From an archaeon (GTDB lineage Archaea; B1Sed10-29; WALL01; JAGHAM01), in NCBI GenBank assembly GCA_021107635.1, contig JAIOSL010000003.1, positions 1 through 37,785 on the forward strand: DNA of 37,785 nt, in the 5' to 3' direction. The notes beneath the pieces were generated by a model. That model saw nothing but the letters and a program-made list of their open reading frames with translations. It was not told the DNA's origin and ran no database searches. Position 1 is the stretch's first letter, and every line of letters starts with the position of its first letter. The translations under genes and the position numbers were made by a program. Positions 8,582 to 33,139 of the stretch are shown piece after piece.

Positions 8582-10010
8582 GATTGTCTAATACAATTTT
8601 GTTGGTTGTGGTTGAAGCATCTTGTATGGGTGTAGAACCAGTATTAACAACAACATTGTTTGTTATGATGAAGTGTTCACTTTGAGTGTCAGCAATTTGG
8701 ATTCCTTGATTAGTGGCTCCGTTTATTATGCAATCAGAAATTATGTAATCTGATGAAGGGTCATTTCCGGAAACATATATTCCTTTTGATCCAGAATTTG
8801 TTACAATCGAATTTTTTATCATGATGTCTGAAACGTCTCTTAGATAAATGCCATATTCTCCTGTGTCAGATACCTTAGAATCGCTTAAAGATACTTTTTC
8901 TGCACCCCACAATCTTATTCCGTGCGTCCCTCCTTTAATCTGGATATTGCTAAGAGAAACTTGTTTGGGACTGCTTCCAAGCAAACCCCAATTAACTGAA
9001 TCTTGTATTTGAATGTTGGAAAAAGACAGATTTTCAGAATCATCTAAATGAATGCCAGTGTCAGAAGGACTTGATATGAGGATGTTATTGAAATTGTTGT
9101 TGAAGCAATCCATTCCACAGAGCAGTCCGGTTTCGCTTCCAGTTATTCGTATGTTGTTAAAATTGCTGTCTTGAATCGTATATAATTTTAAGCCGTAGTG
9201 TCCGTCTGAACTGTCAAGTACATGGATATAAAAATTGTTGAAATTATTGTTTGATGATTGATAATCGACCATTTTTATTCCCCAAAACGATTCTGTTACA
9301 AAATTGTTGAAATTGCAGTTATGTACTGCATGTAAATCTAAAGCGTATCCATCATCAATTCCTTCCATGATTACATCGCTAAAAGTACTATTGTAAATGC
9401 TAGTCATTGCAAAACCATGCCATTCCTGCACGTTTTGTATGTAGATGTTTGAAACCATACCATTATTCAGTTGTCCAAGATACAACGCAGAGTCTCTTGC
9501 ATTTAGAAGATGTACTCGCTCTAGCACAAAATCACTGGTTCCTTGGTCAAATCGTATGCATTCGCCGTCTCCAGGATTGTTCTGTAAGTTTGCGTCTATT
9601 GTCATATCGGAGATGGTAACTTCACTTTTTCCTCTTACTAGAATAACATATCTAACTGTTCCTGCGCTTGGTTGACTAGCAGGATTCATTCCGTTTTTAG
9701 TTCTTAGCATGGTATTCCCTGTTCCGCTTCCAACAAAACGGATGTTGTCATCGAGATAGATGGGATAAGTAATCTCAAAAAGTCCGGGTGGTAGCCATAC
9801 TGTTCCGCCGCCAGAAGCGGCAACGTCATCAATTGCTGCTTGAATTTCCACTTGAGAGTTTGTTTCGCTTGGTTCCCAGTAGTTGCCGTTGCTGTTCCTG
9901 ATGAGCGTCTCTTTGTTGTCCATGCTGTCGCTTATTGAACGAGTCACAGAACCAACAAAATAGAGTGTGGTTAAGAGTAAAACTACTACAATCAAAAAAT
10001 TTTTGGTCAT
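8574..10010 (-). CDS. Beta-helix surface protein, array gene 7 (last)
   Basis: 478 aa. N-terminal hydrophobic segment (about residues 4-22) with GSVTR, then the array's conserved NSNGNYWEP block and a pectate-lyase-like cap: IQAAIDDVAASGGGTVWLPP. The rest is a right-handed parallel beta-helix with stacked Asn-rich rungs (NFNNF, NFNNI repeats) and a C-terminal rung ending in DNLT. Compared with its paralogues it has a 4-residue insertion between WEP and IQ. No catalytic residues of a known polysaccharide lyase could be assigned. It is the last of seven genes, overlapping the previous by 4 nt, and its 3' end overlaps iscU by 8 nt. Likely exported or membrane-tethered by the N-terminal helix. 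Confidence 0.85.
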   Translation of the reverse strand: MTKNFLIVVVLLLTTLYFVGSVTRSISDSMDNKETLIRNSNGNYWEPSETNSQVEIQAAIDDVAASGGGTVWLPPGLFEITYPIYLDDNIRFVGSGTGNTMLRTKNGMNPASQPSAGTVRYVILVRGKSEVTISDMTIDANLQNNPGDGECIRFDQGTSDFVLERVHLLNARDSALYLGQLNNGMVSNIYIQNVQEWHGFAMTSIYNSTFSDVIMEGIDDGYALDLHAVHNCNFNNFVTESFWGIKMVDYQSSNNNFNNFYIHVLDSSDGHYGLKLYTIQDSNFNNIRITGSETGLLCGMDCFNNNFNNILISSPSDTGIHLDDSENLSFSNIQIQDSVNWGLLGSSPKQVSLSNIQIKGGTHGIRLWGAEKVSLSDSKVSDTGEYGIYLRDVSDIMIKNSIVTNSGSKGIYVSGNDPSSDYIISDCIINGATNQGIQIADTQSEHFIITNNVVVNTGSTPIQDASTTTNKIVLDNLT

Positions 10011-11398
10011 GTTAAGTTGTCCTCCACTAACTTATTGACTGTTCCAGGCGTGTTGTCGTTTAAGTTTTGGATGTTGTTATCGAGGATTACGTTGTTGGTT
10101 ATAATAAAATTATCGTGAGCGTCCGAATCAATAAAAATGCCTCTATTGTTTTCTCTGATGATATTGTCTGAGATTATGAAGTTTGAGTTTATGCCAGAAT
10201 TTCCTTCAATGAAAATACCATTGCCATTGTTATTAAGTATCTGGCATCGTTTAATGCTGAAATCATTTGAATTTTTGATTTCAATGGCATAGCTTGGATC
10301 GTTTCCGTTCAAAAAGAATGAGTCAGAAATGCTTACTCCAGTAGAACTGTATATTGTATTTCTTCCGCCTGCGTTGTGTACTTGAACATTTGAAACGGTT
10401 GCGTCTTCAACTGAATCAATGTGAAGTCCATACGCTCCTGTGTTTTTTATTATTGAATTTTTTACGTTTATGTTGTCTCCGGATATTGCAAATCCTACAT
10501 TATCGATATTTTCGACTTGTATGTTGTTAAAGTTCAAGTTAGAACATGTACTCATTACGTTAACTCCGTTTCCTCCGCCTTGGTCTATTCGAATGTTATT
10601 GAAATTGCTGTTGTGCGTGTCACTGATTTTAAATGTGCTTCCGGTTCCTGTGCCACTAATAACAATGTTGTTAAAGTTGCAGTTTTCATTGTATTCGTCG
10701 GCAACTATTTTGATTCCGAAATTACAGTCTTTTATGATTATGTTGTTCATACTAACATTTCTTCCATCTGATAAATCAAGTGCATAGCCGATAGTGTTTG
10801 TGTTTCCGTAAGCGATGCAATCGCTTAATATAGAGTCTTCAAATGAATCAAGACCGAAAGAATGCCTTTCTTCTTTTGATACGTTAAACACGGAAACTTT
10901 TGAGATAAAGAAACGTTTGCAAACGCCTGAACTCATTACTCCGTTTGCACCAGGATTATTTATGTGGATGTTTTGGACTAGGATATTTGTTGCATCTCTG
11001 AATCTTAATGCGTTTCCTCCCATGCTGTGCATTTCAACTGTGAAATCTGAAAGAGTTATGTTGTGCCGGTCAACAATCCAGAATGGGTATATTGTATTTG
11101 AAGTCGAATCAATGATTGTAGCTCCTATGCCACTTCCTTGAATACGCACGTTATTCCCAGGTTCAATGTCTTGAGTTATGTGTAGTATTCCCGCTGGCAA
11201 CCACACCGCTCCTCCTTGTACACCAAGATCGTCTATTGCTGTTTGAATGTTTTCACCTAGAGGTTCCCAGTAGTTACCATTGCTATTGCGTATCAAGGTT
11301 TCCTTGTTATCTTGGGAGTTACCTATTGATCTAGTAACGGAACCAACTAAATATACTGTTACTATTAACAGAACAATTACAATCCAATGTTTTTTCAT
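10007..11398 (-). CDS. Beta-helix surface protein, array gene 6
   Basis: 463 aa, the shortest member. Signal-anchor (MKKHWIVIVLLIVTVYLVGS), VTRSIG, the NSNGNYWEP block, then IQTAIDDLGVQGGAVWLPAG. The helix body shows rungs such as NCNFNNIVI, NSNFNNIRI and LNFNNIQV, and a final ISDNIIRENNRGIFI rung before NKLVEDNLT. GTVWLP, seen in most paralogues, is GAVWLP here. Joined to both neighbours by ATGA overlaps, so expression probably depends on the single promoter near 18540. Function: probable extracellular binding or lyase-like fold; no active site identified. Confidence 0.85.
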   Translation of the reverse strand: MKKHWIVIVLLIVTVYLVGSVTRSIGNSQDNKETLIRNSNGNYWEPLGENIQTAIDDLGVQGGAVWLPAGILHITQDIEPGNNVRIQGSGIGATIIDSTSNTIYPFWIVDRHNITLSDFTVEMHSMGGNALRFRDATNILVQNIHINNPGANGVMSSGVCKRFFISKVSVFNVSKEERHSFGLDSFEDSILSDCIAYGNTNTIGYALDLSDGRNVSMNNIIIKDCNFGIKIVADEYNENCNFNNIVISGTGTGSTFKISDTHNSNFNNIRIDQGGGNGVNVMSTCSNLNFNNIQVENIDNVGFAISGDNINVKNSIIKNTGAYGLHIDSVEDATVSNVQVHNAGGRNTIYSSTGVSISDSFFLNGNDPSYAIEIKNSNDFSIKRCQILNNNGNGIFIEGNSGINSNFIISDNIIRENNRGIFIDSDAHDNFIITNNVILDNNIQNLNDNTPGTVNKLVEDNLT

Positions 11399-12798
11399 GT
11401 TAGATTATCTCCTATTAGCTTGTTTACTGATCCAGTGTTATCGTTTATGTTACCATTTGTGTTTTCTTGGACAATATTATTAGTTAGAATAAAGTTGTTG
11501 TGAGCTCCATTGTCCAGATAGATTCCCCTGGCGTTATTTCTTATTAGGTTATCGGAGACAATGAAATTTGTGTTTGGCCCGCCAGTGTCATCAAAGTATA
11601 AACCATTTCCTGCATTATTAATTATTTGAGAGCCAGAAAATATTACGTTTTGAGAATCTCGTATGATAAAGACGTGATCTGTTGCTGTTCCCTCAGAAAA
11701 AATGCTGTCTGTGATTGTTATTCCGTTGGATTGAGATATTGAATTCCATCCATTACTTCCTTTAGATTGATAGTTGGATATTGAAACGTTTTCAGCATTG
11801 GTTATTCTTAGAGAATAAGCATCAGGTTCGAAAACGTGAACATTGTTGACGTTAATGTTTTTTCCTAGTATTGCCATGCCGGAACCAGTGGATTGCATGT
11901 TAACGTTGTTTATGTTTATGTTTTCGCAAACTTCTAAAACACTTATTCCTCCATCACAGTCAACCAGGTTAATGTTGTTGAAATTAGAGTTACGCACGGC
12001 TTTTATTTGAAGACAAGCTTCCCCTCCACTAATTATAATATTATTGAAAGAACTGTTTTCAGTGAAATCATTTTCATCTGCTTTTCCAGTAATTTTTATT
12101 CCGTATTGACTATCTTTGATTATCATGTTGTTTACTTGAGTGTTAGATGTTTGAGTTATGTCCAAGCACATGTTTTGTTTGCAGTCTTTGAGGACACAAT
12201 CATTAAAAATCAGTCCATCTGAGCCTGTGACTCCTATACCTTGATGGTTTAAGTGATCTGTGTCAGTTACACTTATTTTTGAAAAAATGCCATTTTTGCA
12301 GTTACTAACGTATATTCCTGCACCCGAAGGATTTACTATTTGAATTTTTTCTAGGATAAAATCTTCTGAAAAACCGGTTCTCATCGCATGTCCTATTCCG
12401 CCTCCCCTACGGTTTCCATCCAGAGTCAAGTCTGAAATAGTGAAGTTTTTAGAGTCTTCGGCTAGGAGTATCATCGTTCCGATTTCAGTTTTTTTAAGTA
12501 TTGTGTTTCCTATTCCATTACCTATTAATTTTATGTTACTTTTTAGTTCTATTCGCTGGCTTCCAATTTCAAAAGTACCTGCTGGGATCCACACAGTACC
12601 ACCTTCAGAATCAAAATCGTCTATTGCTGTTTGAATGTTCGAGCCTATCGGCTCCCAGTAGTTACCGTTACTGTTCCTAATCATCATTTCTTTGTTATCT
12701 TGAAAGTTACTTATTGTTCTAGTAACTGATCCGATTAAGTAAAAGGAAGATAGTAAGAGTACAATTGCCATTAACAGTTTAATGTGTTTCACGTTCAT
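11395..12798 (-). CDS. Beta-helix surface protein, array gene 5
   Basis: 467 aa. N-terminal helix (about residues 6-24), GSVTRTIS, NKEMMIRNSNGNYWEP, then IQTAIDDFDSEGGTVWIPAG. Rungs include SSFNNIIISG, NSNFNNINLV and INNVNM; the last rung reads VSDNLIRNNARGIYL and the tail ends NKLIGDNLT. The conserved block has MM where the paralogues have TL. Start is ATG at 12798, overlapping gene 4 (ATGA). Same fold and probable location as its neighbours. Confidence 0.85.
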   Translation of the reverse strand: MNVKHIKLLMAIVLLLSSFYLIGSVTRTISNFQDNKEMMIRNSNGNYWEPIGSNIQTAIDDFDSEGGTVWIPAGTFEIGSQRIELKSNIKLIGNGIGNTILKKTEIGTMILLAEDSKNFTISDLTLDGNRRGGGIGHAMRTGFSEDFILEKIQIVNPSGAGIYVSNCKNGIFSKISVTDTDHLNHQGIGVTGSDGLIFNDCVLKDCKQNMCLDITQTSNTQVNNMIIKDSQYGIKITGKADENDFTENSSFNNIIISGGEACLQIKAVRNSNFNNINLVDCDGGISVLEVCENININNVNMQSTGSGMAILGKNINVNNVHVFEPDAYSLRITNAENVSISNYQSKGSNGWNSISQSNGITITDSIFSEGTATDHVFIIRDSQNVIFSGSQIINNAGNGLYFDDTGGPNTNFIVSDNLIRNNARGIYLDNGAHNNFILTNNIVQENTNGNINDNTGSVNKLIGDNLT

Positions 12799-14204
12799 TC
12801 CACCAAGTTTTTTGTAACAATACTGTTTGATGCACTACTATCATCGTTAAAGTCTTTACCACTGTTGTAAAGGAGATTGTTGTTGGTTACTATAAAATTA
12901 TCATGTGTGCCAGAAGGCAAAGCCATTATGTCAATGCCTCTACCGCCATTGCCGGTGATTATGTTGTCTGTTAAAACAAGATTTTCACATGGCATACCTT
13001 CATTCCAAAAGGTTATCCCATCTGCAGTATTGTCTTGTATTCTGCAACCAGATATGATAACATCACTGGAAGATTTTATTGAAAGCCCATGGATTGCTCC
13101 ATTGGTTATAGAACAATCAGAAATGACTACATTATTTGAATTTATTATTGGGTTATCATTGTTTGGAGAATGGATTTGCACATTGGAAACCGTGACGTTT
13201 TCTGCTGAGTTAATACACAATCCGTATGCTACTGTGTTTTCAACAATACCATTGTTCACGTTCAAGTTTTTCCCGCTTAACACAAGACCTTGTCCAATAG
13301 TTCCTTCCACATAAAAATTGCTTAGGCTTACGTCCGTACAGGTTTCCCATATTTTAATACCGTTCCATCCTCCTGAAACAAAGATATTGTTATAGTTAGT
13401 GTTCTTGTTCATTTGTATCTTAAGACCATCCCCAGCAGAATCCAAATTAATCAAGTTTATATTATTAAACACTGAATTTTCCGTGTATCTTGCGTCTTCA
13501 TCGTCATCAACTTTAATTCCCATTTTACTATCATACACTAAAATATTGTTCACGGTACAATCATGGACTCCAGAAAAATCTATTCCGTATCCATTAGTGT
13601 TCCACATGATACAATCGCTTACAGTTATACCATCTGAGGTCCCAACAGTCAATCCATGCCATCTCTCTGTATCATCTGCTTTATAGTTTGAAATGAACCC
13701 ATTTTGCGAACGTTGGACAGAAAGTCCACTAGCGGCTGCTCTAGTCATGTGAACATTTTCGATTATGAAATTTGAACAGTCTCGTATCACCATGCCATTC
13801 CCATCACATCCATTATGACGGTTTCCATCAACAGTCAAATCTGACACAGTAAAGTTTTCAATAAATTCTGCCCACAGTGGATAACCTGCAGTTCCATCAC
13901 CTAGCTTGATTACGGTTATTCCAACACCGCTTCCCACAAGACGAATATTGCTCTTGAGATAAGTCTTATATGCAGTTAAAACATATGTCCCAGGAGGGAG
14001 CCAAACTGTTCCTCCATTTCCCAAATCATCAATAGCTATCTGGATATTAGCTCCTACTGGTTCCCAGTAATTACCGTTACTGTTCCTAATCAGGGTTTCC
14101 TTGTTGTCGTGGAAATCGCTTATGGAACGAGAAACAGAACCAACTAAATAAACTGCTGCTAAAACTAGCAGTAAACCAATAATTCCATAAACCTTTTTTT
14201 TCAT
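12795..14204 (-). CDS. Beta-helix surface protein, array gene 4
   Basis: 469 aa. Signal-anchor MKKKVYGIIGLLLVLAAVYL, then GSVSRSIS (Ser for the usual Thr), NSNGNYWEP and IQIAIDDLGNGGTVWLPPGT. Rungs include NSVFNNINLI and NTNYNNIFVSG; a MPCENLVLTDNIITG rung precedes the end. The C-terminus is the most diverged of the set, ending TKNLVE rather than DNLT, because the coding frame runs two residues further into the next gene's start. Overlaps both neighbours by 4 nt. Confidence 0.85.
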   Translation of the reverse strand: MKKKVYGIIGLLLVLAAVYLVGSVSRSISDFHDNKETLIRNSNGNYWEPVGANIQIAIDDLGNGGTVWLPPGTYVLTAYKTYLKSNIRLVGSGVGITVIKLGDGTAGYPLWAEFIENFTVSDLTVDGNRHNGCDGNGMVIRDCSNFIIENVHMTRAAASGLSVQRSQNGFISNYKADDTERWHGLTVGTSDGITVSDCIMWNTNGYGIDFSGVHDCTVNNILVYDSKMGIKVDDDEDARYTENSVFNNINLINLDSAGDGLKIQMNKNTNYNNIFVSGGWNGIKIWETCTDVSLSNFYVEGTIGQGLVLSGKNLNVNNGIVENTVAYGLCINSAENVTVSNVQIHSPNNDNPIINSNNVVISDCSITNGAIHGLSIKSSSDVIISGCRIQDNTADGITFWNEGMPCENLVLTDNIITGNGGRGIDIMALPSGTHDNFIVTNNNLLYNSGKDFNDDSSASNSIVTKNLVE

Positions 14205-15625
14205 AGCAAGTTATCTCCAATAAACTTGTTTGAACCAGTACCTTGATCTCTCACGCCTTGGCCAGTGTTGTCTGTCAAAATATTATTTGTTATGATATAA
14301 TTGTCATGTGCGAAAGCATCTACTCGAATGCCTTCGTTATTGTAAGTGATGATATTATCTGATATGACAAAGTTTGTACAGAGTCCTTCAGTTCCAAGAA
14401 TGTATATCCCCGCTCCGTTGTTATCTTTGAAGTTTGAACCTGAAATAATAAATTCATCTGAATTTTTGACTATTAAACCTCGTTCGTTGCCACCATCAAA
14501 AGAACATTCGCTTATCAAAACGTTGTTCGCATCTGAAAAAACATTGTAGTTAGGAGATTCCACGAACTGAACATTCGAAAAAGTAGCGTCTTTAATCCCT
14601 TTAGCATAAAACGTTCTTCCTGAACCAACATGTTTGACTATTCCATTAGCAATGTTGATTCGTTCGCAATCGTGAAGCCAGTTTGAAATGTGTAAAGCAG
14701 ATTGAGTGCCATCTGCTTGAATGTTAAAGTTGTTTAGGTTGATGTCGTTGCTTCCATCTAAAACTATACCTACTTCTGCTTCAACGTTAATATTTGTGAA
14801 ACTTGAATTATATTCTCTTTTAATCCACAGTCCGAACCCATCTCCACTATATGAAATACTTTGAATGACAACGTTGGTCACAACGTTATTTCCTCCTTTT
14901 TCTCCAGGATCTCCAAAAAACTTTATTCCCATTCCCGAATCTTTCACAATCAAGTTATTCAAAGCACAGTTATGCAAAGTATGGAAGTCCATACCCATAT
15001 ACGCAATATCCGTTGCAATCAGATTACTAAACGTAGAATCCCACGCACTGTTAATGGCAAATCCCTCATAAGAATATCCTTGTAGTTCACTTGCCATGCA
15101 ATCAGACATAAAACCTCTTTCACAATTACCAAACACACCAAAACCATTACTCAAAGATCTTCTTGCGTGAACCCGTTCTATAATAAAACCTGAAACACTG
15201 TGTAAGTATAATGGATTGCCCATGACATAATTACCATCAATAGTCAAATCTGAGACAGTCACATTAAGTTGTCTGGCTGAACTGGAACTACGGATCATTG
15301 TTCCTCCGTAATTGCTCTCTGCTTTTATTGTTGTAATTCCCATTCCCTTGCCAACAAGCCGAACATTGTCTTTTAAGTAGATGGTTGAAGAAGGAACAAG
15401 AGTTCCTGCTGGAAGCCATACTGTTCCTCCTCCTGTGCTTTCTGCGTCGTCTATTGCTGTTTGAATGTTCTCTCCTGTCGGCTCCCAATAGTTTCCATTG
15501 CTGTTCCTAATTAATGTCTCTTTGTTGTCATGAATATTGCTTATGGAACGGGTTATTGAACCGATTAGGTATATGCTGATTATTACAAAAAGGATAGTCA
15601 GGAAAAGTAATTTGGAGTGTTTCAT
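14201..15625 (-). CDS. Beta-helix surface protein, array gene 3
   Basis: 474 aa. N-terminal hydrophobic helix, GSITRSISN, NSNGNYWEP, then IQTAIDDAESTGGGTVWLPA. The body has fewer NFNNI rungs than its neighbours (NSSFTNINVE, NLNNFNIQ) but the same 22-25 residue periodicity, and ends with a FVISDNIITYNNEGI rung and NKFIGDNLL. One WLHDCERINIAN segment near residue 310 breaks the repeat and may form a loop. Overlaps neighbours by 4 nt on both sides. Confidence 0.85.
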   Translation of the reverse strand: MKHSKLLFLTILFVIISIYLIGSITRSISNIHDNKETLIRNSNGNYWEPTGENIQTAIDDAESTGGGTVWLPAGTLVPSSTIYLKDNVRLVGKGMGITTIKAESNYGGTMIRSSSSARQLNVTVSDLTIDGNYVMGNPLYLHSVSGFIIERVHARRSLSNGFGVFGNCERGFMSDCMASELQGYSYEGFAINSAWDSTFSNLIATDIAYMGMDFHTLHNCALNNLIVKDSGMGIKFFGDPGEKGGNNVVTNVVIQSISYSGDGFGLWIKREYNSSFTNINVEAEVGIVLDGSNDINLNNFNIQADGTQSALHISNWLHDCERINIANGIVKHVGSGRTFYAKGIKDATFSNVQFVESPNYNVFSDANNVLISECSFDGGNERGLIVKNSDEFIISGSNFKDNNGAGIYILGTEGLCTNFVISDNIITYNNEGIRVDAFAHDNYIITNNILTDNTGQGVRDQGTGSNKFIGDNLL

Positions 15626-17091
15626 GTTAGGTTATCCTCCACTATTTTGTTAGTTCCGTCTCCTAGATCAGTTATTTCACTTATTGAATGACCACCAACA
15701 ATGTTATTTGTTATAATGTAATTGTCATGAGCAGCATCAGTAATGAAAATGCCTCTCTGGCCATTATTTCGAATAATATTATCTGATATGATGAAGTCTT
15801 TGCAGGTTCCTGCTGCATGACTCACATAAATTCCATACGTGTTTCCATCTTCAATTTGATTCCCTTTGATAATGACGTCTTCGCTATCATCGATAAATAA
15901 AGAACCGTACGCACTTTCACTTGTTTTGGTTATTTTATTATCTGAAAAAACAATGTTTTTTGAGTTTCTGATTTCGTTTGCGTAAGGAACTCCAGAAGTA
16001 GCAACATCAAAAAATAGAGAGTTAGTTACAACAATGTTTTCTCCGCCAATGTCAAATCCTTTAGCTCCTGGAGAAATCACTTGAGCATTTGAAACTTTAA
16101 TGTTTTTCCCTAATAATGTCAAACCGTTTTCTTGAGAACGGACAACCTGAACATTATTGAATACTAGGTTTCTTGCTTGAGTATCTACTAGTATTCCTTC
16201 TCTGCCGCCTGTTAGTTTGATATTTGAGAACGTGGAATTATAACAGTTTTGTATTTTGTATCCGTAATCTCCTCCTTCCAAACTGTTTTCTTTAAGGATA
16301 ACGTTTACGTTGTTAAAAGTGTTATTGGACGCTCCTCCAGCAATTTTGATTCCTTTCTCTCCGCCTAATACAAGCAAGTTACTCAAAACAGAGTTCCTGC
16401 ACCAAAAGTCCATTCCTCCTGCTCCAGAACCTGTTCCGACTTCATCTGTTAGAGCAACAAGATTACTGAAAACACAGTAATCTGCTTCTGAAACTGCTAT
16501 TCCATGACCTCCAGTAGCATCTATGTCATCGATTTTATGTCCGTAAAGGTTGTTAAAGAAAGAATTGGTGCATTCGCTGATGTATATTGCGTTAAAGTTG
16601 GCGTTAATGCTTGAGATATCCTCAACATGCATATTGTTTCCTCGAACATACACACCGTTTCCACTTTCTGTTTCTCCATGATTGTGCATGTTTACAGTGA
16701 AACCTTTCAGCATGACATTATCTGCGTAAGCCCATACTGGGAAAATGTTTCCTTCAGTAGTTTCTATTATTGTAATATCTCTTCCTGAACCAATCAAGGC
16801 AACGTTATCTTTCAATTCAATAGCATGTTCGTTTGAACCGTCTTCGTCTAAAGCATTAACATTAAATGTTCCTGGTGGCAGCCATACTTTTCCACCTCCA
16901 GACATAGCAACATCATCGATTGCTACTTGGATGTTTGCGCCTATAGGCTCCCAGTAATTACCATTAGAGTTTCTGATTAGTGTTTCCTTATTGTCTTGAG
17001 AATCACTTATTGTTCTAGTTACTGAACCCACTAAGTAAATTGTTGTCAAAACCAACAATAAAACAATAATTCCAAAAAACTTATCTTTCAT
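15622..17091 (-). CDS. Beta-helix surface protein, array gene 2
   Basis: 489 aa, the longest member. Signal-anchor, GSVTRTISDSQ, NSNGNYWEP, IQVAIDDVAMSGGGKVWLPP. It differs by an insert of about 10 residues (NALDEDGSNEHA) between the cap strand and the first rung, which accounts for its length. Rungs include NNTFNNVNVI and NLVFNNVQVV; the final rung reads FIISDNIIRNNGQRGIFI and the tail NKIVEDNLT. Overlaps both neighbours by 4 nt. Confidence 0.85.
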   Translation of the reverse strand: MKDKFFGIIVLLLVLTTIYLVGSVTRTISDSQDNKETLIRNSNGNYWEPIGANIQVAIDDVAMSGGGKVWLPPGTFNVNALDEDGSNEHAIELKDNVALIGSGRDITIIETTEGNIFPVWAYADNVMLKGFTVNMHNHGETESGNGVYVRGNNMHVEDISSINANFNAIYISECTNSFFNNLYGHKIDDIDATGGHGIAVSEADYCVFSNLVALTDEVGTGSGAGGMDFWCRNSVLSNLLVLGGEKGIKIAGGASNNTFNNVNVILKENSLEGGDYGYKIQNCYNSTFSNIKLTGGREGILVDTQARNLVFNNVQVVRSQENGLTLLGKNIKVSNAQVISPGAKGFDIGGENIVVTNSLFFDVATSGVPYANEIRNSKNIVFSDNKITKTSESAYGSLFIDDSEDVIIKGNQIEDGNTYGIYVSHAAGTCKDFIISDNIIRNNGQRGIFITDAAHDNYIITNNIVGGHSISEITDLGDGTNKIVEDNLT

Positions 17092-18521
17092 GTCAAGTTA
17101 TCTCCAATAAACTTGTTTGAACCAGTTCCATCATCATCAAGTCCTGTCCCTCCGTTGCCCAGAAGGACATTATTAGTAATAATGTAATTGTCGCTATCCG
17201 GTTCTCGGATAAACACGCCTTTATCTGCGTTATTTCTTACTATGCAATCGCTTATGATAAAATTAGAATAGCCATAATCTCTAAAATCAAACATTATGCC
17301 ATCATCTGAATTGTCTTCGATAATGCCTTTTGAGATGATTATATCGTTCCCGCCTTGAGCGTAAATTCCGCGAGTTGAACCTTTTGATATGAAATTTGTT
17401 AAAGTGAACTTGTTGACTTCAAAAAGCTTTATTCCTTCAGCATCACAATTCCTTACTTGAACGTTTGAGAGAGTGTTTCCCGTATTCTCTCGTATTTGCA
17501 CACAGCTTTCGCCAGTATTTTCCACTAGCATGTTGTTGACTGTGATGTTTTCTCCCCAGGAATAGAAGCCATGAGTATTAACATTTTTTATGTGAATGTT
17601 ATTAAACTGAGTATTGTAAGTCATCATTGAACCTTGATAGTATCCATAAACGTAAATCCCTTGACTGACTTGATTGTTTCCATCAATGAAAATATTGTTG
17701 TAGTTACAGTTGTAATTATGTTGGATTTTAAGCCCTGCATCACCAGATCTACTCTCAGTTATGACGATATTATTAAAATTACTATTGTAAATTCCGGTTG
17801 CAGCGGTTGAACCTATAACTTTCATGGGGTATCCACAGTCTTTAATGACAATGTTATTCAATTCAGAGTCTCTCATGTTCGCGCAGTCGACTGCTTGCAT
17901 GTTAACATCCCAAAAGATACCTCCGTCGACAAGCATGTTTGAACCGCTTAAAGCCAAACCATGATATGAGCTTACTATGTCGTGAGCAAAAACATTTTTT
18001 ATGAACCCGTTTTGAGAGTTATCATAAATTCTTATTGCATTTCGGGTAGGACCAGAAAGGTAAACGTTTTCTATTATGAAATTCTTGCTGTTTTTTATGT
18101 CCATGCCATTGTAAGAACCAGGATTGTTTGGCCTATTGCCCTCAAGAGTCAAATCAGAAACAGTAAAATTTTGTTTGTTGTGAGCAACTATGATTCCAAA
18201 ACGGTTGTCGTTGATGTCATCATTACGAATAATAGTATTTCCTATACCCATCCCAATCAAGCGAATGTTATTTCCAAGCAAAACATTTGAAGGTGTGTTG
18301 AAAGTTCCTGCAGGCAAAAATACTGTCCCACCTGCTAATCCAAGGTCATTAATAGCAACTTGGATGTTGCTTCCAAGTGGTTCCCAGTAGTTACCATTAG
18401 AATTATAAATGAATGTTTCTTTGTTGTCGTGAGAATCACTTAGAATTCTTGTGACAGAACCAATTAGCATTATGCAAGCTATAACTACAAAAACGCTGAA
18501 GAGGAACACACGGTGTTTCAC
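17088..18521 (-). CDS. Beta-helix surface protein, array gene 1 (promoter-proximal)
   Basis: 477 aa, GTG start at 18521 with GGAG about 5 nt upstream. It has the N-terminal helix (about 6-22), GSVTRILS, NSNGNYWEP preceded by FIY instead of LIR, and IQVAINDLGLAGGTVFLPAG. Rungs include NSNFNNIVIT, NCNYNNIFIDG and NTQFNNIHIK; the last rung is FIISDCIVRNNADKGVFI and the tail NKFIGDNLT. First gene of the seven-gene operon, with a palindromic TATA box at 18540-18551. It lies 83 nt after the end of the pepC-like gene. Confidence 0.85.
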   Translation of the reverse strand: MKHRVFLFSVFVVIACIMLIGSVTRILSDSHDNKETFIYNSNGNYWEPLGSNIQVAINDLGLAGGTVFLPAGTFNTPSNVLLGNNIRLIGMGIGNTIIRNDDINDNRFGIIVAHNKQNFTVSDLTLEGNRPNNPGSYNGMDIKNSKNFIIENVYLSGPTRNAIRIYDNSQNGFIKNVFAHDIVSSYHGLALSGSNMLVDGGIFWDVNMQAVDCANMRDSELNNIVIKDCGYPMKVIGSTAATGIYNSNFNNIVITESRSGDAGLKIQHNYNCNYNNIFIDGNNQVSQGIYVYGYYQGSMMTYNTQFNNIHIKNVNTHGFYSWGENITVNNMLVENTGESCVQIRENTGNTLSNVQVRNCDAEGIKLFEVNKFTLTNFISKGSTRGIYAQGGNDIIISKGIIEDNSDDGIMFDFRDYGYSNFIISDCIVRNNADKGVFIREPDSDNYIITNNVLLGNGGTGLDDDGTGSNKFIGDNLT

Positions 18522-18604: not shown

Positions 18605-19915
18605 CTATCTCATGGGTGCAAGTGAACCAAGTGGATCCCATGGCATTAGTTCTATTGGTTTTTGTTTCAACGCCTTTTTCAATTTTGGCGAAAGGAATTT
18701 CTTGTGGATGACTGATTGATAAACGTATTCATCAAACCAGGAATCACCCATGATGAAATAGCCTTTTTTGCCTTTTTTCTCTCCCCAACTATTCTCTACC
18801 TTCCAACGATTTGGCTTGTTTTTTATCAAATTAACTCCGGTAAACACCATTGCATGAGTAAGTTTGCTTTCACCATAGTCCAAGCGTTCTCCTTTACCCA
18901 ATGTTAAATCTGTTTTGAGCGCGTCTTCATAAAGGAATAGTTTTGAATCCATAAGTCCTGTTTTTGATTCCATCATTTTCATTATGTCACACCCGAACCA
19001 AACTGGCATGCCTGTTTTTAATTGGTTTAGGGACATGTCTTTCATGGTTTGATTGTTTACGTTCAAGTAGAGTATTTTTTTTCCTTCGATTACATTTCCA
19101 AGATATTTCACGGTAAATGTTTTCTCAAATGGTTTGTTTTTTGTTGGAGCGTTAACAATGCTTATGAAATCGTCTAGTTTAAGGTTGACATATTTCTTGA
19201 AAAATGTTTTAGGAGTTAGGTTGCGGTCTCGATGAAATTTTTCTTTTTTGTCTTTGTATTCAAAATCAAAGCTGGTTGGAGGTTCTCCGAAAAACTTGAC
19301 TAGCATTTGATATATTTCAGAAATCATTTTTTCTTTTTTTTCTGGTTTTTTTCTTAGTTTTATTGCGTTTTGTCTTAGTTTGAGTGTGAGCAGTTGATTC
19401 ATGGCTCTTGGGTTTTTGCTGTCGAAAGTTTCAGGCATTACAGCTTTTGGCACGACCCCATACTTGTCTATTAGGCTAGCAAGCATATCCCATTGTCCTC
19501 CGTCCTGAACCGGATCAGTTAATAACCAGGTTAGTAGTCTGCTGTCTTGTTTTTCATTTCGTGTTTCAATGATGTTTTCCAAAAAATAGTTTGCTTTTTC
19601 TAGTTTGTCCCAGAACATCACATAACTTTGAGATAGCTCAAAATCTTTTATGTTGCATTTTTTTGCTACTCTTTGTCTGAAAAGGTTTAGACCTGCGAAC
19701 ATCCAACATCTTCCGCTTCTTTCTTGGTTAGTTATTTTGCCTGTTTTCACTTCATTTGAAAAAGTATTAGGTAACCGGATTAGTGAGTTACGATTCAAAG
19801 AAACTGAATCTATTCCATTTTGGATTATTGCGCTAGATAGTAATTCTGTGTTCTTGTCCAGTTTATGTTTCAACAGGTTTTTTCGGGAAATGCATTTCAT
19901 GGCTCGCACCAACAT
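18605..19915 (-). CDS. pepC: Aminopeptidase C / bleomycin hydrolase family (C1B)
   Basis: 436 aa from the ATG at 19915 (a TTG at 19930 would add five residues). Papain-fold cytoplasmic cysteine aminopeptidase that releases N-terminal residues from peptides; known members are hexamers with the active sites facing inside. Catalytic residues counted from 19915: Q64 and C70 in NQERSGRCWMFAG, H354 in LTHAMVFTGV, N375 in VENSWGEKKG; PVQDGGQWDML is also typical. The C-terminus, which lies in the active site cleft in this family, reads PWDPLGSLA but continues with PMR. The family is mainly bacterial and eukaryotic, so transfer is likely. It follows the MFS gene by 33 nt and may be co-transcribed with it. 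Confidence 0.92.
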   Translation of the reverse strand: MLVRAMKCISRKNLLKHKLDKNTELLSSAIIQNGIDSVSLNRNSLIRLPNTFSNEVKTGKITNQERSGRCWMFAGLNLFRQRVAKKCNIKDFELSQSYVMFWDKLEKANYFLENIIETRNEKQDSRLLTWLLTDPVQDGGQWDMLASLIDKYGVVPKAVMPETFDSKNPRAMNQLLTLKLRQNAIKLRKKPEKKEKMISEIYQMLVKFFGEPPTSFDFEYKDKKEKFHRDRNLTPKTFFKKYVNLKLDDFISIVNAPTKNKPFEKTFTVKYLGNVIEGKKILYLNVNNQTMKDMSLNQLKTGMPVWFGCDIMKMMESKTGLMDSKLFLYEDALKTDLTLGKGERLDYGESKLTHAMVFTGVNLIKNKPNRWKVENSWGEKKGKKGYFIMGDSWFDEYVYQSVIHKKFLSPKLKKALKQKPIELMPWDPLGSLAPMR

Positions 19916-19948
19916 ATCATTCTCGTTCAATCAATAAAAATCTTTAGT

Positions 19949-27554: not shown

Positions 27555-28232
27555 ATGAAGTATAATATAAACGGCACGACTCTCCAGACCCTTGACATTG
27601 AACTCAACGAAGGAGAGGCTGTGTACACTGAATCAGGAGGAATGTCCTGGATGAGTGCCAACATGACAATGAAAACAGACACTCGAGGTGGCTTAATGAA
27701 GGGTCTTGGCAGGATGGTTTCCGGAGAATCTTTATTTTTGACTACTTACTGTCCAGAGCAAGGCGTTGGAACAATAACTTTTTCCTCTGAATTCCCAGGG
27801 AAGATAGTTCCTTTGGAACTAGCTGAAGGACAGACAATGATTTGTCAAAAAGATGCTTTTATGGCTGCCGAAGATGCTGTTAAACTAGAAATTCACTTTC
27901 GTAAAAAGTTAGGTGCAGGATTTTTTGGTGGTGAAGGATTTGTTCTTCAAAAGGTAACGGGTCCGGGAATAGCTTTTCTAGAAATAGCTGGAGAGATAAC
28001 CCAATATGAACTACAGGAAGGACAAATTTTGAAAGTGGATCCGGGACACATAGCGTTCTTTGAACCTTCAGTGAACTATGATATTACCAGAGTCAAAGGA
28101 ATGAAAAACATGTTATTTGGCGGAGAAGGAATATTCCTTGCTGCTGTGAAGGGACCAGGCAAAATATGGCTCCAAAGCATGCCTTTGTCAAACTTAGCTG
28201 GTAAACTAGCATGTCATCTGTCAGGAAAGTGA
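27555..28232 (+). CDS. AIM24 / TIGR00266 family protein
   Basis: 225 aa. The pattern GEAVYTESGGMSWMSANMTM, GGLMKGLGRMVSGESLFLTTY, and repeated GPG turns (VTGPGIAFLEIAGE, VKGPGKIWLQSMP) match the AIM24 domain, a beta-rich trimeric fold of unclear biochemical function. The C-terminal half repeats the LEIHFRKKLGAGFFGGEGFVLQ theme. Ribosome site GAGGT 7 nt before the ATG. A small membrane-protein gene follows 4 nt after the stop, so the two are likely one operon. In bacteria and mitochondria AIM24 proteins are linked to membranes; that is the extent of the functional clue. Confidence 0.9.
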   Translation: MKYNINGTTLQTLDIELNEGEAVYTESGGMSWMSANMTMKTDTRGGLMKGLGRMVSGESLFLTTYCPEQGVGTITFSSEFPGKIVPLELAEGQTMICQKDAFMAAEDAVKLEIHFRKKLGAGFFGGEGFVLQKVTGPGIAFLEIAGEITQYELQEGQILKVDPGHIAFFEPSVNYDITRVKGMKNMLFGGEGIFLAAVKGPGKIWLQSMPLSNLAGKLACHLSGK

Positions 28233-28485: not shown

Positions 28486-28575
28486 GAAAGAGTTAAATAA
28501 TCTCTTGGATTAAATTTTTTTATGAACAACGATAATACTAAAAGTCAGGTTAAACCATTAAAAGGAGCTAAAAAT

Positions 28576-28929
28576 ATGAAAGAGGTAGGCCTTGTTGAAA
28601 AAGTAGCAGTTTGTGGTAAACAAAAAGTTGACGCACTAGCAAAATTTGATACAGGAGCTGCTCGTACAAGTGTAGATAAAACTTTAGCAGAAAAAGTAGG
28701 GCTTGGTCCTGTGTTACGAACAAGAAAGATTAAAAGTGCATTGTCTAAAGGCCAAGAACGTGAAGTGGTTAAAGCTCAAATTCAAGTGGCAGGAAAAAGT
28801 TTTGATACTGAAGTGAATTTGAGTGATCGCAGTCACTCAAAATGTAAAGTGTTGATTGGCAGGGATTTAATGTTTGAAAATTTTGTGATTAACATTTCTA
28901 AGGAAGGCAAGCCACCGGAAGTAGTCTAG
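28576..28929 (+). CDS. RimB/COG4067-like retropepsin-type aspartic protease
   Basis: 117 aa from the ATG at 28576, which has GGAG at 28564-28567; an in-frame ATG at 28522 would add 18 polar residues. The catalytic triad-like motif is FDTGAARTS, followed by KIKSALSKGQ and the second conserved block KCKVLIGRDLMFENFVINI, as in the COG4067 family (formerly 'ATP-dependent zinc protease'). In Pseudomonas the related RimB is reported to be a retropepsin-type protease that trims glutamates added by the RimK ATP-grasp ligase. Here a RimK-type ligase lies directly beyond, convergent, so the pairing is preserved. One DTGA site per chain means it should work as a dimer. Target unknown. Confidence 0.85.
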   Translation: MKEVGLVEKVAVCGKQKVDALAKFDTGAARTSVDKTLAEKVGLGPVLRTRKIKSALSKGQEREVVKAQIQVAGKSFDTEVNLSDRSHSKCKVLIGRDLMFENFVINISKEGKPPEVV

Positions 28930-28958
28930 TCTAGTTTCACGCCGATCTTTTCAAGGTC

Positions 28959-28965
28959 TTTTTTT
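28959..28965 (+). terminator. T-run after the RimB-like gene
   Basis: Seven T in a row (28959-28965) plus further T-rich sequence, 30 nt after the stop at 28929 in the gap between two convergent genes. This is the usual form of an archaeal terminator; no strong hairpin precedes it. The rest of the 133-nt gap holds nothing else I can identify. Confidence 0.4.
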
Positions 28966-29062
28966 ATTTCTTCCAGTTATTTTTCAGAGATTGAAAATTT
29001 AAAAAACTTTCTGAAACATTATACGCCACCAACATCAAAAATAACAACTTTTATCATTGAAC

Positions 29063-29950
29063 TCAGTCTTTTGCTCTGTTGTAGATGAATTTCATTACGT
29101 GGTCATAAAGATTTATTCCTGCTACTGTGCTAATGCCTTTAAAGCTCGGTCCATCATTAATTTCTATTAACATTGGTCCGTTATCTCCAGGAATAATGTC
29201 TACTCCGCACACTTCCATACCAATAGCATTAGCTGCTTTCAATGCAATGTCAATTTCTTCTTCTGTTGGCTTATACTTTTCGGGTTTTCCGCCGATTGTG
29301 ATGTTAGCTCTGAATTCTCCTTCTTTCATACACTTGCGTTTCATTGCTGCTGGAACTTCTTCACCTACTACAAACAGTCTGTGATCTTCTTTTGGATTTT
29401 TGATGAATTCTTCCACGTCCACGATTTGATCTAGTCTTGCCATTGCATCAATGATTGGAGCGAAATCGTTCGGTTGAGAAATTAGCATAACTCCTTTGCC
29501 ACCCATTCCACCTAGCAGTTTAACTACTACTGGAAATTGAAAGTCTTCAACTACTTTTTCCACTAGTTTTGGTGAGGTCATCAACACGGCTTTTGGTGTG
29601 GGTAAGCCAGCTTCAGCCATCACTTTTAGAGTATAAAATTTGTTTTTTGCTATTGTTATTGCGTCAGGTTGTATTGGACAGTATACGCCAGCATCAATTA
29701 GAATGTCTAGAATAATCGGTGCATATGTTGCATCTTGTGAGGATGAACGTATGTAAGTGGCATCAAAATCACAAAGGTTTGTATCTCCAAGCAATACTTG
29801 TCTACTTTCTCTGTCAAGCACAGTTCGTATCTCAGAAAAAGGTGCCTTTTCTACTTTATCGAAGTATTTTCCTGCTGATTTTAACAACTTTTCTGTTACT
29901 TCTCCGTAATTTCTTGAACCAGGTATTAAAACAAATTTCAAGGTTTCCAC
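29063..29950 (-). CDS. RimK-type ATP-grasp peptide ligase
   Basis: 295 aa, GTG start at 29950, overlapping the upstream channel-peptidase gene by 13 nt. ATP-grasp motifs: QPDAITIAKNKFYTLKVM, K144 with the Gly-rich loop KLLGGMGGKGV, VEEFI around E180, DHRLFVVG, and the metal site D251 and E263-x-N265 (LIEINDGPSFKGI). These are the RimK/LysX/glutathione-synthase type, which join an amino acid to a carboxylate through an acyl-phosphate. Substrate cannot be deduced; a tail of glutamates on a protein or small peptide is the RimK precedent. With a RimB-like protease and an MscS-C39 protein alongside, it forms a probable ligation/cleavage set. Confidence 0.92.
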   Translation of the reverse strand: METLKFVLIPGSRNYGEVTEKLLKSAGKYFDKVEKAPFSEIRTVLDRESRQVLLGDTNLCDFDATYIRSSSQDATYAPIILDILIDAGVYCPIQPDAITIAKNKFYTLKVMAEAGLPTPKAVLMTSPKLVEKVVEDFQFPVVVKLLGGMGGKGVMLISQPNDFAPIIDAMARLDQIVDVEEFIKNPKEDHRLFVVGEEVPAAMKRKCMKEGEFRANITIGGKPEKYKPTEEEIDIALKAANAIGMEVCGVDIIPGDNGPMLIEINDGPSFKGISTVAGINLYDHVMKFIYNRAKD

Positions 29951-31443
29951 AACCGTTCGATTCGTTCAACTTCAGTGCTTTTGAATTCATCGATAAATTC
30001 TCTTAGGTAACTTGGGAAAACATCTTTAACGCGTTTTGATTGTCTGAATACTTGTTCTAGTTTGCGTTCTATGCCTTTGCTTAGTTTTTCGTAGTGTATT
30101 GGATCTGAGTAGTATAACTTGTTTTTAACTCTCCAGTATGCTTTGGTTCCTCTTGGAGCATATGCAATGTATCCTCTTTCATCGCCTTCAAACGGTCCCA
30201 TGGCTCGTTCCATGTCTTTATAGTTAACTAGGTAAACTCCACCAGTATTCGAATTTGGATCCATTATGAGCAGTTCATCTCCTTCAATTCCCATGCAAAG
30301 AACTGCATGTTTTTGTTCTCGTTTTACTCCAGGGAACAAAGCTGCTTTATAAAAGTTTAGTACGAGTAATGCACCTTCTGAAAGCCATGCTTTGACTTCC
30401 TCTTTAAGGTTTATGATATCTTTGTAAGGAACCATTAATCCTTGCACTTCTCCTTCCGTCATACGTTTTACTGCACTCATTGCATTCTTTGGAGATGTAC
30501 CACCTGGCACTTTAGTTTTAGCTTCTTTCGCAAGCGTTTTCTGGCCTCCTTTAACAGGATAACCAAATAGAGTTAAAACAATGTTCAGTACTGCTGGCAC
30601 ACAATAAGAGCTTTCTTGAGCAATGTAATGTCTCCTCATTGATTCTAATGTTTTCAACTCAAACCTTGATTTTTTTATTCGAATGTCCTGATTTATGAGC
30701 GTTGAATGAGGAACAGCAATAAAATAACCTTTTCCCGTGTCAAGCACAGTAGCAAAAGTTGAGAAACCTACTACTTCTCCATCAGCTTCATCCGTGAACA
30801 CTCGCTGACCCATTTTCAAAAAGTGAGAGGATTTCAAGTACCAACCAGCAATCCAATTCCTTACAGGATCTTTTAATGAGACAAATGCAAGCCCAGCTAC
30901 AAGTAAAGCAAAAGCTCCAGTAACATAACCAGTAGTCTCTCCAAGTATTGTACTTAAATTTAGTTGAGTGAAAAATGCGTTTAATACTATTAAGTAAAGT
31001 ATTACTCTTAGTGCCATGATTGGAATGCGCATAAAGGTTTCGCGTATTCCAATATCCCGCAAATAAGACTTAAAATGTAAACCAGAAAGGAAAACATTGA
31101 TTATTTCCATAAACAAGTTAACAAGCATCACTCCAAGCACTAGAATAACTATAGCAGTCATTACTGCAGGAGCATATTCTCCTAGCTGCTCAAGCATTGG
31201 CTGAAGCATTTTTGCTCCTAGTGTTTGGTTTTCATCCCAGAAGTAAACAGACAAGAAAATAGTTAAAATGATTAAGAGGTATTGGGTTGCTTTCACTAAT
31301 ATTCTCCAATGACTATCCTTTTTTGTTACTTTATAACCAAGCTTCGCTATGAGTCTAGTGACAATTAAACCGGTTATTAGGATTCCCAAAGTTGCTATTG
31401 CAACTGAAATATTTGAGTCTAATCCCATAATATCTAATGCCAT
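29938..31443 (-). CDS. MscS-like channel fused to a C39-like cysteine peptidase
   Basis: 501 aa. The N-terminal half has about five membrane helices (12-35, 50-68, 93-118, 140-160, 170-190) followed by the MscS beta domain (KDPVRNWIAGWYLKSSHFLK to PHSTLINQDIRI, about 191-256). After a short linker comes a papain-like domain of the C39 type (about 270-440): Q276 and Cys281 in QESSYCVPAVLN, His379 in EQKHAVLCMG and Asp395 in LLIMDPNSN, the correct order and spacing for an active peptidase. A C-terminal basic helical part (440-501) follows. It is co-transcribed with the ATP-grasp gene. The peptidase should sit in the cytoplasm, where the MscS C-terminal domain lies. This fusion is unusual; the activity is inferred from motifs only. 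Confidence 0.85.
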   Translation of the reverse strand: MALDIMGLDSNISVAIATLGILITGLIVTRLIAKLGYKVTKKDSHWRILVKATQYLLIILTIFLSVYFWDENQTLGAKMLQPMLEQLGEYAPAVMTAIVILVLGVMLVNLFMEIINVFLSGLHFKSYLRDIGIRETFMRIPIMALRVILYLIVLNAFFTQLNLSTILGETTGYVTGAFALLVAGLAFVSLKDPVRNWIAGWYLKSSHFLKMGQRVFTDEADGEVVGFSTFATVLDTGKGYFIAVPHSTLINQDIRIKKSRFELKTLESMRRHYIAQESSYCVPAVLNIVLTLFGYPVKGGQKTLAKEAKTKVPGGTSPKNAMSAVKRMTEGEVQGLMVPYKDIINLKEEVKAWLSEGALLVLNFYKAALFPGVKREQKHAVLCMGIEGDELLIMDPNSNTGGVYLVNYKDMERAMGPFEGDERGYIAYAPRGTKAYWRVKNKLYYSDPIHYEKLSKGIERKLEQVFRQSKRVKDVFPSYLREFIDEFKSTEVERIERLWKP

Positions 31444-31534: not shown

Positions 31535-32317
31535 ATGTCAGTCCTTCTTGCTATTTTAGGTATGTTACTTGTTCCAGGAGTGGTTATTTTTGGTTTAGTT
31601 GCTCTAGCTGGAATCAAACAACTCTGGGAATATGAAAAAGGAGTCAAATTTAGGCTTGGAAGATATCATAGTCAAATGGGTCCAGGACTTAATTATGTGA
31701 TTCCGTTCATTGAAAAATGGGTTAGGATAGATACTAGAATATTTACTGTGGATATTCCAAACCAAGATGTGATAACAAAAGATAACATTCCAGCAAACAT
31801 CAATGCAGTCATCTATTTCAAAGTAAAAAATCCAGAAAAATCAGTGCTGGCAGTAAGAGATTATCATTATGCCATCTCAAAATATGCTCAGACCTCATTA
31901 AGAAACATGGCTGGTGAAGTCACTCTTGACGAACTATTATCTCAAAGAGACAGCATAGCAAAAAAACTGGAACAAATTGTTGATGAAGCTACAAATCCAT
32001 GGGGCTTAGATGTAACAGGCATAGAGCTCCAAGACATCCAATTGCCAGAAATGCTCAGAAGAACAATGGCTAAACAAGCAGAAGCAGAAAGAGAAAAAAG
32101 AGCAGTAATAATCAAAGCAGAAGGAGAAGTTGCAGCTGCTGTCAACCTTTCTAAAGCAGCCGCTAAATACAAAAATGCTGAAGCAGCACTCTTTTTACGT
32201 ACACTAGAAACAATAAACCATCTTTCACCAGAAAAGTCTAAAACAAACATTTACGCAATCCCAGTGGAAGTGCTCAGAGCAGTTGAAAAATATTCTGAAG
32301 ACGGAGGTGGAAAGTAA
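31535..32317 (+). CDS. Stomatin/SPFH-domain protein, copy 1
   Basis: 260 aa. One N-terminal membrane hairpin or helix (residues 1-28), then an SPFH/band-7 domain (about 30-190): YEKGVKFRLGRYHSQMGPGL, VDIPNQDVITKDNIPANINA, RDYHYAISKYAQTSLRNM, and ELQDIQLPEMLRRTMAKQ. The C-terminal Ala/Glu-rich helix (QAEAEREKRAVIIKAEGE) is the oligomerisation coiled coil. Stomatins form large membrane-bound rings and in known cases regulate channels and membrane proteins. No NfeD partner gene is present; a second stomatin follows directly (stop then ATG with no gap). Confidence 0.95.
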   Translation: MSVLLAILGMLLVPGVVIFGLVALAGIKQLWEYEKGVKFRLGRYHSQMGPGLNYVIPFIEKWVRIDTRIFTVDIPNQDVITKDNIPANINAVIYFKVKNPEKSVLAVRDYHYAISKYAQTSLRNMAGEVTLDELLSQRDSIAKKLEQIVDEATNPWGLDVTGIELQDIQLPEMLRRTMAKQAEAEREKRAVIIKAEGEVAAAVNLSKAAAKYKNAEAALFLRTLETINHLSPEKSKTNIYAIPVEVLRAVEKYSEDGGGK

Positions 32318-33139
32318 ATGTTAGACTTAATTTTAGGAGGCCTTCTAGTATTAGCAGGTCCCTTTGTACTACTCGCCCTTTTGATATTACTTTCAAGCAT
32401 TAAAATAGTCTATGAATATGAAAAAGGACTGAAATTTAAGTTCGGACGATTCACTGGAATACTTGAACCAGGAATAAGATTCGTCTGGCCAGTCATAAAC
32501 AGTTGGAGAAGGATTGACACACGAATCAACACCATAGACATAATGCCACAATCAATGATAACAAAAGACAACGTTCCAGTCTCAATTGACGCTGTTGTAT
32601 ACTTTAGGGTAGAAGACCCAGAAAAAGCAGTGCTTAACGTAGAAGACTATTACTATGCTATATCCAAGTATGCTCAAACATCACTAAGAAACGTGGTAGG
32701 AGAAGTAGAACTGGATGATTTACTCTCAAAAAGAGAAGCAATTGCATCAGAACTAAGAAAAATAGTTGACGTAAAAACAGATGAATGGGGCCTCAAAGTA
32801 ACCATCCTAGAACTACAAGACATCAAACTACCAGAAGACATGAAACGAATTATTGCCAGGCAAGCAGAAGCAGAAAGAGAAAAAAGATCAGTGATAATTA
32901 AAGCAGAAGGAGAAACAATAGCTGCTGATAACCTGGTCAAAGCAGCTACCATGCTTACATCCACACCAGGCGCACTACACTTGAGAACACTTACATCCTT
33001 AGATGACATTGCAAGCGACCAATCAAATTCTGTGACGTTCTTTGTACCAGTAGAACTAGGAAAAACATTCACAGAAGACTTAGGTAAACCAATGCCAAAA
33101 AGACCAAGAAAGTTTCCTCTAGTAAAACCTAAACTATGA
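32318..33139 (+). CDS. Stomatin/SPFH-domain protein, copy 2
   Basis: 273 aa, a paralogue of copy 1 with the same layout: N-terminal hydrophobic stretch (1-28), SPFH domain with YEKGLKFKFGRFTGILEPGI, IDIMPQSMITKDNVPVSIDA, and ELQDIKLPEDMKRIIARQAE, then the coiled-coil helix REKRSVIIKAEGETIAADNL. It has a longer basic C-terminal tail (PMPKRPRKFPLVKPKL), likely to touch membrane or nucleic acid. The ATG touches the previous stop, so both are made from one mRNA and may form a hetero-oligomer (inference). Confidence 0.95.
   Translation: MLDLILGGLLVLAGPFVLLALLILLSSIKIVYEYEKGLKFKFGRFTGILEPGIRFVWPVINSWRRIDTRINTIDIMPQSMITKDNVPVSIDAVVYFRVEDPEKAVLNVEDYYYAISKYAQTSLRNVVGEVELDDLLSKREAIASELRKIVDVKTDEWGLKVTILELQDIKLPEDMKRIIARQAEAEREKRSVIIKAEGETIAADNLVKAATMLTSTPGALHLRTLTSLDDIASDQSNSVTFFVPVELGKTFTEDLGKPMPKRPRKFPLVKPKL

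Follow-up and report, generated by a model that had tools for sequence, protein, structure and literature searches.

A RimK-type ligase gene adjoining an MscS channel fused to a papain-like peptidase domain: a candidate reversible amino-acid ligation module in DPANN archaea

The gene cluster and its products

The window analysed here is the whole 37,785-nt stretch of contig JAIOSL010000003.1 (assembly GCA_021107635.1), which belongs to a 1.2-Mb archaeal genome, 88% complete, with nearest relatives that bear the name Candidatus Diapherotrites. Three adjoining genes in this window are our subject: a RimB-like retropepsin on the plus strand and, convergent with it on the minus strand, a RimK-type ATP-grasp ligase, which lies downstream of an MscS channel-peptidase gene of the same orientation (Table 1). 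All three had been called in a first reading made from the sequence alone (hereafter the original prediction), and all were found at the positions given there. Ligase and RimB-like genes are separated by about 130 bp, and by less in the relatives.

Table 1. Features of the cluster, with their positions in the window and the basis of each assignment
Feature	Position	Strand	Basis
MscS-type channel fused to a papain-like (C39-like) peptidase domain, predicted cytoplasmic, and a conserved tail	29938..31443	-	Pfam, hydropathy, AlphaFold2 and Foldseek, triad
Papain-like domain and tail, residues 256-501	29941..30678	-	Relatives' identity, invariant columns
C-terminal [RK]-hydrophobic-W-x-P motif, codons for LWKP	29941..29952	-	Sequence comparison
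RimK-type ATP-grasp amino-acid ligase	29063..29950; likely start TTG 29941	-	PF08443, TIGR00768, PDB neighbours, residues
RimB/RloA-like retropepsin, clan AA, DTGA active site	28576..28929	+	PF05618, alignment of four relatives

The ligase matched PF08443 (RimK) with an E-value of 8.8e-41 (140 versus 21 bits) and the RimK-family glutamate ligase model TIGR00768 with 178.2 bits against a cut-off of 143.4, and its closest PDB neighbours are the RimK structures 5zct and 4iwx (E ~2e-29). The catalytic set of two lysines, an aspartate and Glu-x-Asn is present, and every ATP-grasp position tested is intact (K104, K144, E180, R191, N216, D251, E263 and N265), although the equivalog cut-off of RimK proper, the S6 ligase (PRK10446), was not reached (125 versus 331 bits). 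The 13-nt overlap of ligase and channel genes described in the original prediction holds only with an upstream GTG start. Three codons after this GTG, three relatives carry an ATG that overlaps the channel gene as ATGA, where the window has TTGA, and because of this correspondence the ligase very probably starts at the TTG, so that the two genes probably overlap by only 4 nt. The longer overlap was for that reason rejected as a special coupling device.

In the fusion protein, MS_channel_2nd and MS_channel_1st_1, which cover the beta-domain and the conserved transmembrane (TM) helix, exceeded their Pfam cut-offs (28.4 versus 20.2 and 26.7 versus 22 bits), and a family profile matched MscS in the PDB at 1.4e-10. 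Five TM helices were predicted by hydropathy, and the loop charges fit an N-out topology, so that the beta-domain and the peptidase domain should both face the cytoplasm. The latter follows directly after the beta-domain, at the vestibule position of MscS, and the C-terminal alpha/beta vestibule that other MscS-family channels carry, in addition to the shared TM helix and beta-domain, is here replaced by the papain-like domain. The Peptidase_C39_2 score of this domain (21.6 bits) lies just under the Pfam cut-off of 24; nevertheless, the papain-like fold and the Q276/C281/H379/D395 set are both present. Foldseek searches with AlphaFold2 models (predicted local distance difference test score of 75 for the full length and 82 for the papain-like domain) identified the first half as MscS and the second as similar to the phytochelatin synthase Alr0975, the pseudomurein endoisopeptidase PeiR and the C39 domains of ComA/PCAT, the matches to C39, C83 and C71 structures having E-values from 1.6e-7 to 1e-5 and a probability of 1.00. 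The papain-like part is also the most conserved, with 78% identity to the nearest relative compared, versus 39% for the channel part. A viral origin of the domain was considered and rejected, as a scan of viral contigs gave no relative, and standalone C39 matches in two genomes (G115 and G351) were discarded as ordinary proteins of about 150 aa without a channel.

For the retropepsin, the open reading frame (ORF) extends from 28522 to 28929 (135 aa, with the active-site aspartate at D43 in that numbering), but the homologues in the relatives begin at the residue matching 28576, which makes the 117-aa gene listed in Table 1 the likelier one and backs the start originally proposed. It matched PF05618 ('Zn_protease') with an E-value of 4.6e-11 (43.2 bits; cut-off 27), and all four relatives aligned keep the DTGA motif unchanged. 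Matches to the NCBIfam models of RloA3 (4.5e-7) and RimB (8.9e-6) were far under their cut-offs, and none of the RimB/RloA equivalog or exception cut-offs (NF052261-4) was reached (18.5-29.7 versus 200-280 bits). No signal peptide was seen by eye, and because the N-terminus (MKEVGLVEK...) has no hydrophobic stretch the protein is probably cytosolic.

Conservation and co-inheritance

A search of 101 relatives recovered full-length channel-peptidases from ten genomes, the window's included. The gene-neighbourhood comparison suggested with the original prediction identified the trio as a conserved unit of the window's clade: the order channel-peptidase, ligase and convergent RimB is kept in 4/4 Diapherotrites genomes with a channel-peptidase (the window's, G001, G002 and G005). 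The flanks of the cluster in the other three are unrelated, so the arrangement is not due to chance, which is also ruled out by the ligase clade. A tree built from 39 ligases places those linked to a channel, that of the window among them, in one clade (support 100/99) with two unlinked genes inside, and archaeal RimB-linked RimKs fall outside it. From this topology the window ligase descends as the ligase of the channel, and RimB was added or kept in the window's lineage only. It is thus quite improbable that the genes are neighbours without a joint function, with RimK and RimB acting as a pair on some cytosolic protein, ribosomal or not, and the channel-peptidase being unrelated to them. RimK-RimB pairs without a channel do occur in related archaea (G004, G055, G095 and G098) and RimB lies on the opposite strand, but the ligase falls in the channel-linked clade rather than with the RimB-linked ones, and it overlaps the channel gene and is inherited together with it, all of which argues otherwise.

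Across 394 archaeal genomes, a profile search found the papain-like domain and tail in 32, of which 30 also encode the fused channel, complete or as fragments. In a pattern scan, not exhaustive, of a genome collection that includes bacteria, all named matches belong to DPANN lineages, namely Diapherotrites, Aenigmatarchaeota, Nanohaloarchaeota and Micrarchaeota. ATP-grasp genes stand next to the channel-peptidase in nearly all genomes that have it, with families f92, f104, f124 and f127 as exceptions. Outside the window's clade the core consists of the channel-peptidase and two ligase-like genes, ATP-grasp A and B. The former is without several catalytic positions (Glu-x-Asn and others) and the latter is intact in every linked member checked, which suggests a pseudo-enzyme/enzyme pair; the window's clade has ATP-grasp B only. 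Additional partners vary and include a third ATP-grasp, a GCS2 protein, a P-loop (MobB-like) protein and a MATCAP-family peptidase.

Several related arrangements were also observed. Pairs of degenerate and intact ATP-grasp genes without a channel are found at seven further loci (L080, L081, L083, L086, L087, L088 and L096) in other archaea, where RimB and a MATCAP-like gene accompany some of them; paired ATP-grasp modules thus make up a wider family. At L041 (7784-10334, genome G092), an MscS without a peptidase domain adjoins degenerate and intact ATP-grasp genes, and a RimB-like gene is encoded at another place in that genome, so the linkage of channel and ligase extends beyond the fusion. 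Nanohaloarchaeal clusters (L051, L053, L060, L067, L127, L132 and others) come after the aIF2-gamma gene. In eukaryotes, the ATP-grasp protein CDC123 acts on eIF2-gamma, so this position might carry meaning or might be incidental. Beside the cluster in the window, an AIM24 gene (27555-28232) lies near the retropepsin, and two tandem SPFH/Band-7 (stomatin-like) paralogues (31535-33139, plus strand) adjoin the channel gene. These, together with a small TM protein and a CAP protein, were rejected as parts of the system, as they are not retained beside the cluster in relatives.

Alternation of peptidases

The window and most relatives have an intact Q-C-H-D set. Some Nanohaloarchaeota have lost it, as has, on a separate branch of the tree, L132/G388. 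A MATCAP gene is present in the cluster in 7/8 assessable genomes with a dead papain-like domain, which represent at least two lineages, and in 0/23 with an intact one (Fisher test, 3e-6, ignoring shared ancestry); since the tree permits as few as two independent losses of the triad, this association rests on few events. Strong MATCAP matches elsewhere in the genome were found in G255 and G322, which score as intact-domain genomes, and therefore only the linked MATCAP subfamily follows the rule. HExxH is kept in 6/6 of the MATCAP cluster members checked. The family (also MATCAP/TMCP, DUF1704/PF08014) occupies the same locus in Nanohaloarchaeota, though not in the window, and in archaea it is represented by proteins only distantly related to the eukaryotic enzymes.

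Poly-glutamate tails are made by RimK-family ligases. They are cut by RloA and RimB (PMC12239564), and poly-glutamate chains are likewise trimmed by the mammalian MATCAP/TMCP enzymes (PMC10499314), which are unrelated to the former in fold. Because two unrelated deglutamylase families thus occupy the same ligase-channel locus in different lineages, the tag would most likely be glutamate, this being the best available hint to its nature. The swapping of peptidases at the locus also fits a cycle of ligation and cleavage.

Comparison with known systems

The RimK-RimB system of the Pseudomonas rim operon, responsible for poly-glutamylation of RpsF, likewise has a RimK-family ligase adjoining a cytosolic RimB-type retropepsin. 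In the window, however, the unit includes the MscS-papain fusion, and both enzymes score under the RimK and RimB equivalog cut-offs; moreover, RpsF is the bacterial S6, and RimB is missing in the other DPANN relatives. The nearest bacterial parallel is RloABC, composed of a retropepsin, a membrane-bound papain-fold protein and an ATP-grasp enzyme, which controls hypo-osmotic tolerance in Pseudomonas aeruginosa (PMC12239564). Its three-part layout, including a membrane protein with a papain/transglutaminase-type domain, is the same, and an osmotic role is in keeping with the presence of an MscS channel in the DPANN counterpart. Nevertheless, RloB is a seven-helix membrane protein with an inactive transglutaminase domain, unlike the five predicted TM helices and intact triad of the MscS fusion, and RloA carries an N-terminal signal peptide that the window retropepsin does not. 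With its predicted cytoplasmic domain, its intact active site and a retropepsin without signal peptide, the archaeal module differs from RloABC.

The C39 (ComA/PCAT), phytochelatin synthase (C83) and PeiR (C71) peptidases share with the fusion the papain-like fold and the Q-C-H-D set, and PCAT, too, has its peptidase domain attached to the cytoplasmic face of a membrane transporter. Here, in contrast, the partner is an MscS channel, a conserved C-terminal tail is present, and neither an ATP-binding cassette (ABC) transporter nor a double-glycine precursor accompanies the gene. In the open-licence literature we found no description of an MscS-C39 fusion or of an MscS/ATP-grasp locus, although the 2009 amidoligase survey (Iyer et al.) may mention related neighbourhoods.

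Proposed function and alternatives

The conserved trio, the ATGA overlap, the ligase clade, the intact catalytic residues, the alternation of peptidases and the parallel with RloABC together lead us to propose, tentatively and at slightly less than even confidence, that the cluster is a module for reversible ligation of an amino acid, most likely glutamate, tied to a mechanosensitive channel; it is best read as parallel to, and distinct from, RimK-RimB and RloABC. The RimK-type ligase would extend a carboxylate of a peptide or protein by at least one amino acid. Papain-like domains, probably seven, would substitute for the vestibule, hanging beneath the MscS pore, and handle the product at the membrane, and the cytosolic RimB-like retropepsin would trim or reset it. 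The channel, in turn, might couple the state of the tag, or a poly-glutamate pool, to membrane tension under hypo-osmotic stress. A bolder form of the proposal, which we regard as rather doubtful, is that the channel is a ring of cysteine peptidases working on the product of the partner ligase, with tension directly controlling removal or release of a glutamate-type tag; this would be a DPANN-specific switch with a logic like that of the tubulin glutamylation code, in which a ligase is opposed by retropepsin, MATCAP or papain-type erasers.

Several observations weigh against the proposed module. Linkage of RimB is confined to the window's clade, and RimB is therefore not part of the core, which consists of the ligase and the MscS-papain fusion; in other clades extra ATP-grasps, GCS2, a P-loop protein or a MATCAP-type peptidase stand where RimB would be. 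Of the three-gene system originally envisaged, the co-inheritance of ligase and channel-peptidase across DPANN stands, but RimB as a core component does not. Four families (L130, L131, L133, L134 and L135) carry the channel-peptidase without a nearby ligase, and the papain-like domain has a dead active site in some relatives, among them G168, whose 99%-complete genome has no MATCAP gene. The papain-fold domain of RloB is periplasmic, whereas that of the fusion is predicted to be cytoplasmic, and RimK-type ligases also take substrates other than poly-glutamate, as LysX and MptN do. The earlier idea of a membrane-linked system that ligates and cleaves thus keeps the support of a conserved unit and of peptidase swapping, but is weakened by the families without a ligase and by the loss of the triad in some Nanohaloarchaeota. 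As a separate observation, the fusions of the five loci named above have an intact triad and form one clade.

An alternative of lower probability, though one to be taken seriously, is that the cluster serves small-peptide metabolism, the ligase making a gamma-glutamyl or oligo-glutamyl osmolyte or thiol that the channel-peptidase cleaves, releasing the pieces on hypo-osmotic shock. MscS-type channels release small solutes, the ligase resembles glutathione synthetase (PF02955, 1.2e-16), and GCS2, of the glutamate-cysteine ligase family, is encoded in the clusters of several relatives and elsewhere in the window genome (L142 on contig 42, 4967-6298, related to the cluster GCS2 of L056, L058 and L059). 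In structure, the papain-like domain comes closest to Alr0975, which cleaves glutathione; however, this fold match (16-18% identity) is at superfamily level only, and ComA C39 and PeiR match about equally well. Furthermore, many clusters are without GCS2, and known peptidases of the RimB and MATCAP types act on protein tails.

The tail of the fusion raises a further and unlikely explanation, in which the ligase modifies the channel itself: the C-terminus (...RLWKP) would be its acceptor or docking site, and glutamylation would tune gating until peptidases remove the tag. Among the 36 sequences that reach the [RK]-x-W-x-P motif, in a tail beyond the folded domain that is predicted to be disordered and modelled with low confidence, the tryptophan is present in 36/36 and the proline in 32/36. 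In the window's clade the protein stops exactly at the motif, and many other relatives continue with a genome-encoded, mostly acidic tail such as WSPEEEE. RimK is known to act on a protein C-terminus (PMC12239564), and the motif could be a docking or acceptor site of the ligase; yet it could also be a structural or assembly motif, and a broader role is suggested by its retention in L130, L131, L133 and L134, where no ligase is linked.

Least probable of all, and by a long way, is a graspetide pathway, that is, one for a ribosomally synthesized and post-translationally modified peptide, in which the ligase would cyclise a precursor, the C39-like domain remove its leader and the channel serve as exit. 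Graspetide loci do combine C39 peptidases with ATP-grasp ligases (PMC8939145), but no ABC transporter is found among the adjacent genes, and the ligase is of the RimK family, with a weak match to MvdD (9bou, 1.3e-5). A linked precursor gene is also lacking, and the overlap of ligase and channel genes and the short ligase-RimB gap leave no intergenic room for one, so this type of locus was rejected.

If the reversible ligation module is real, it would join reversible glutamylation (RimK/RimB, RloABC and the tubulin code) with mechanosensitive channels, two fields that have not yet met, and would, in archaea of very small genome size, tie a covalent modification to membrane tension in a concrete way. 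It would also suggest a reason why RloABC matters to P. aeruginosa under hypo-osmotic stress, and the idea can be put to a direct test through the C-terminal W-x-P motif and the partner genes, which are conserved.

Other features of the window

Seven tandem ORFs of 463-489 aa, with successive 4-nt overlaps, occupy positions 8574-18521 on the minus strand. Their products share an N-terminal TM segment with an IGSVTRSISD..DNKETLIRNSNGNYWEP start and beta-helix-like repeats, and they appear to be an expanded family of surface or secreted proteins. On the same strand, at 18605-19930, lies a gene for a predicted papain-family protein, bleomycin hydrolase/PepC-like by its sequence and unrelated to the C39-like domain of the fusion.

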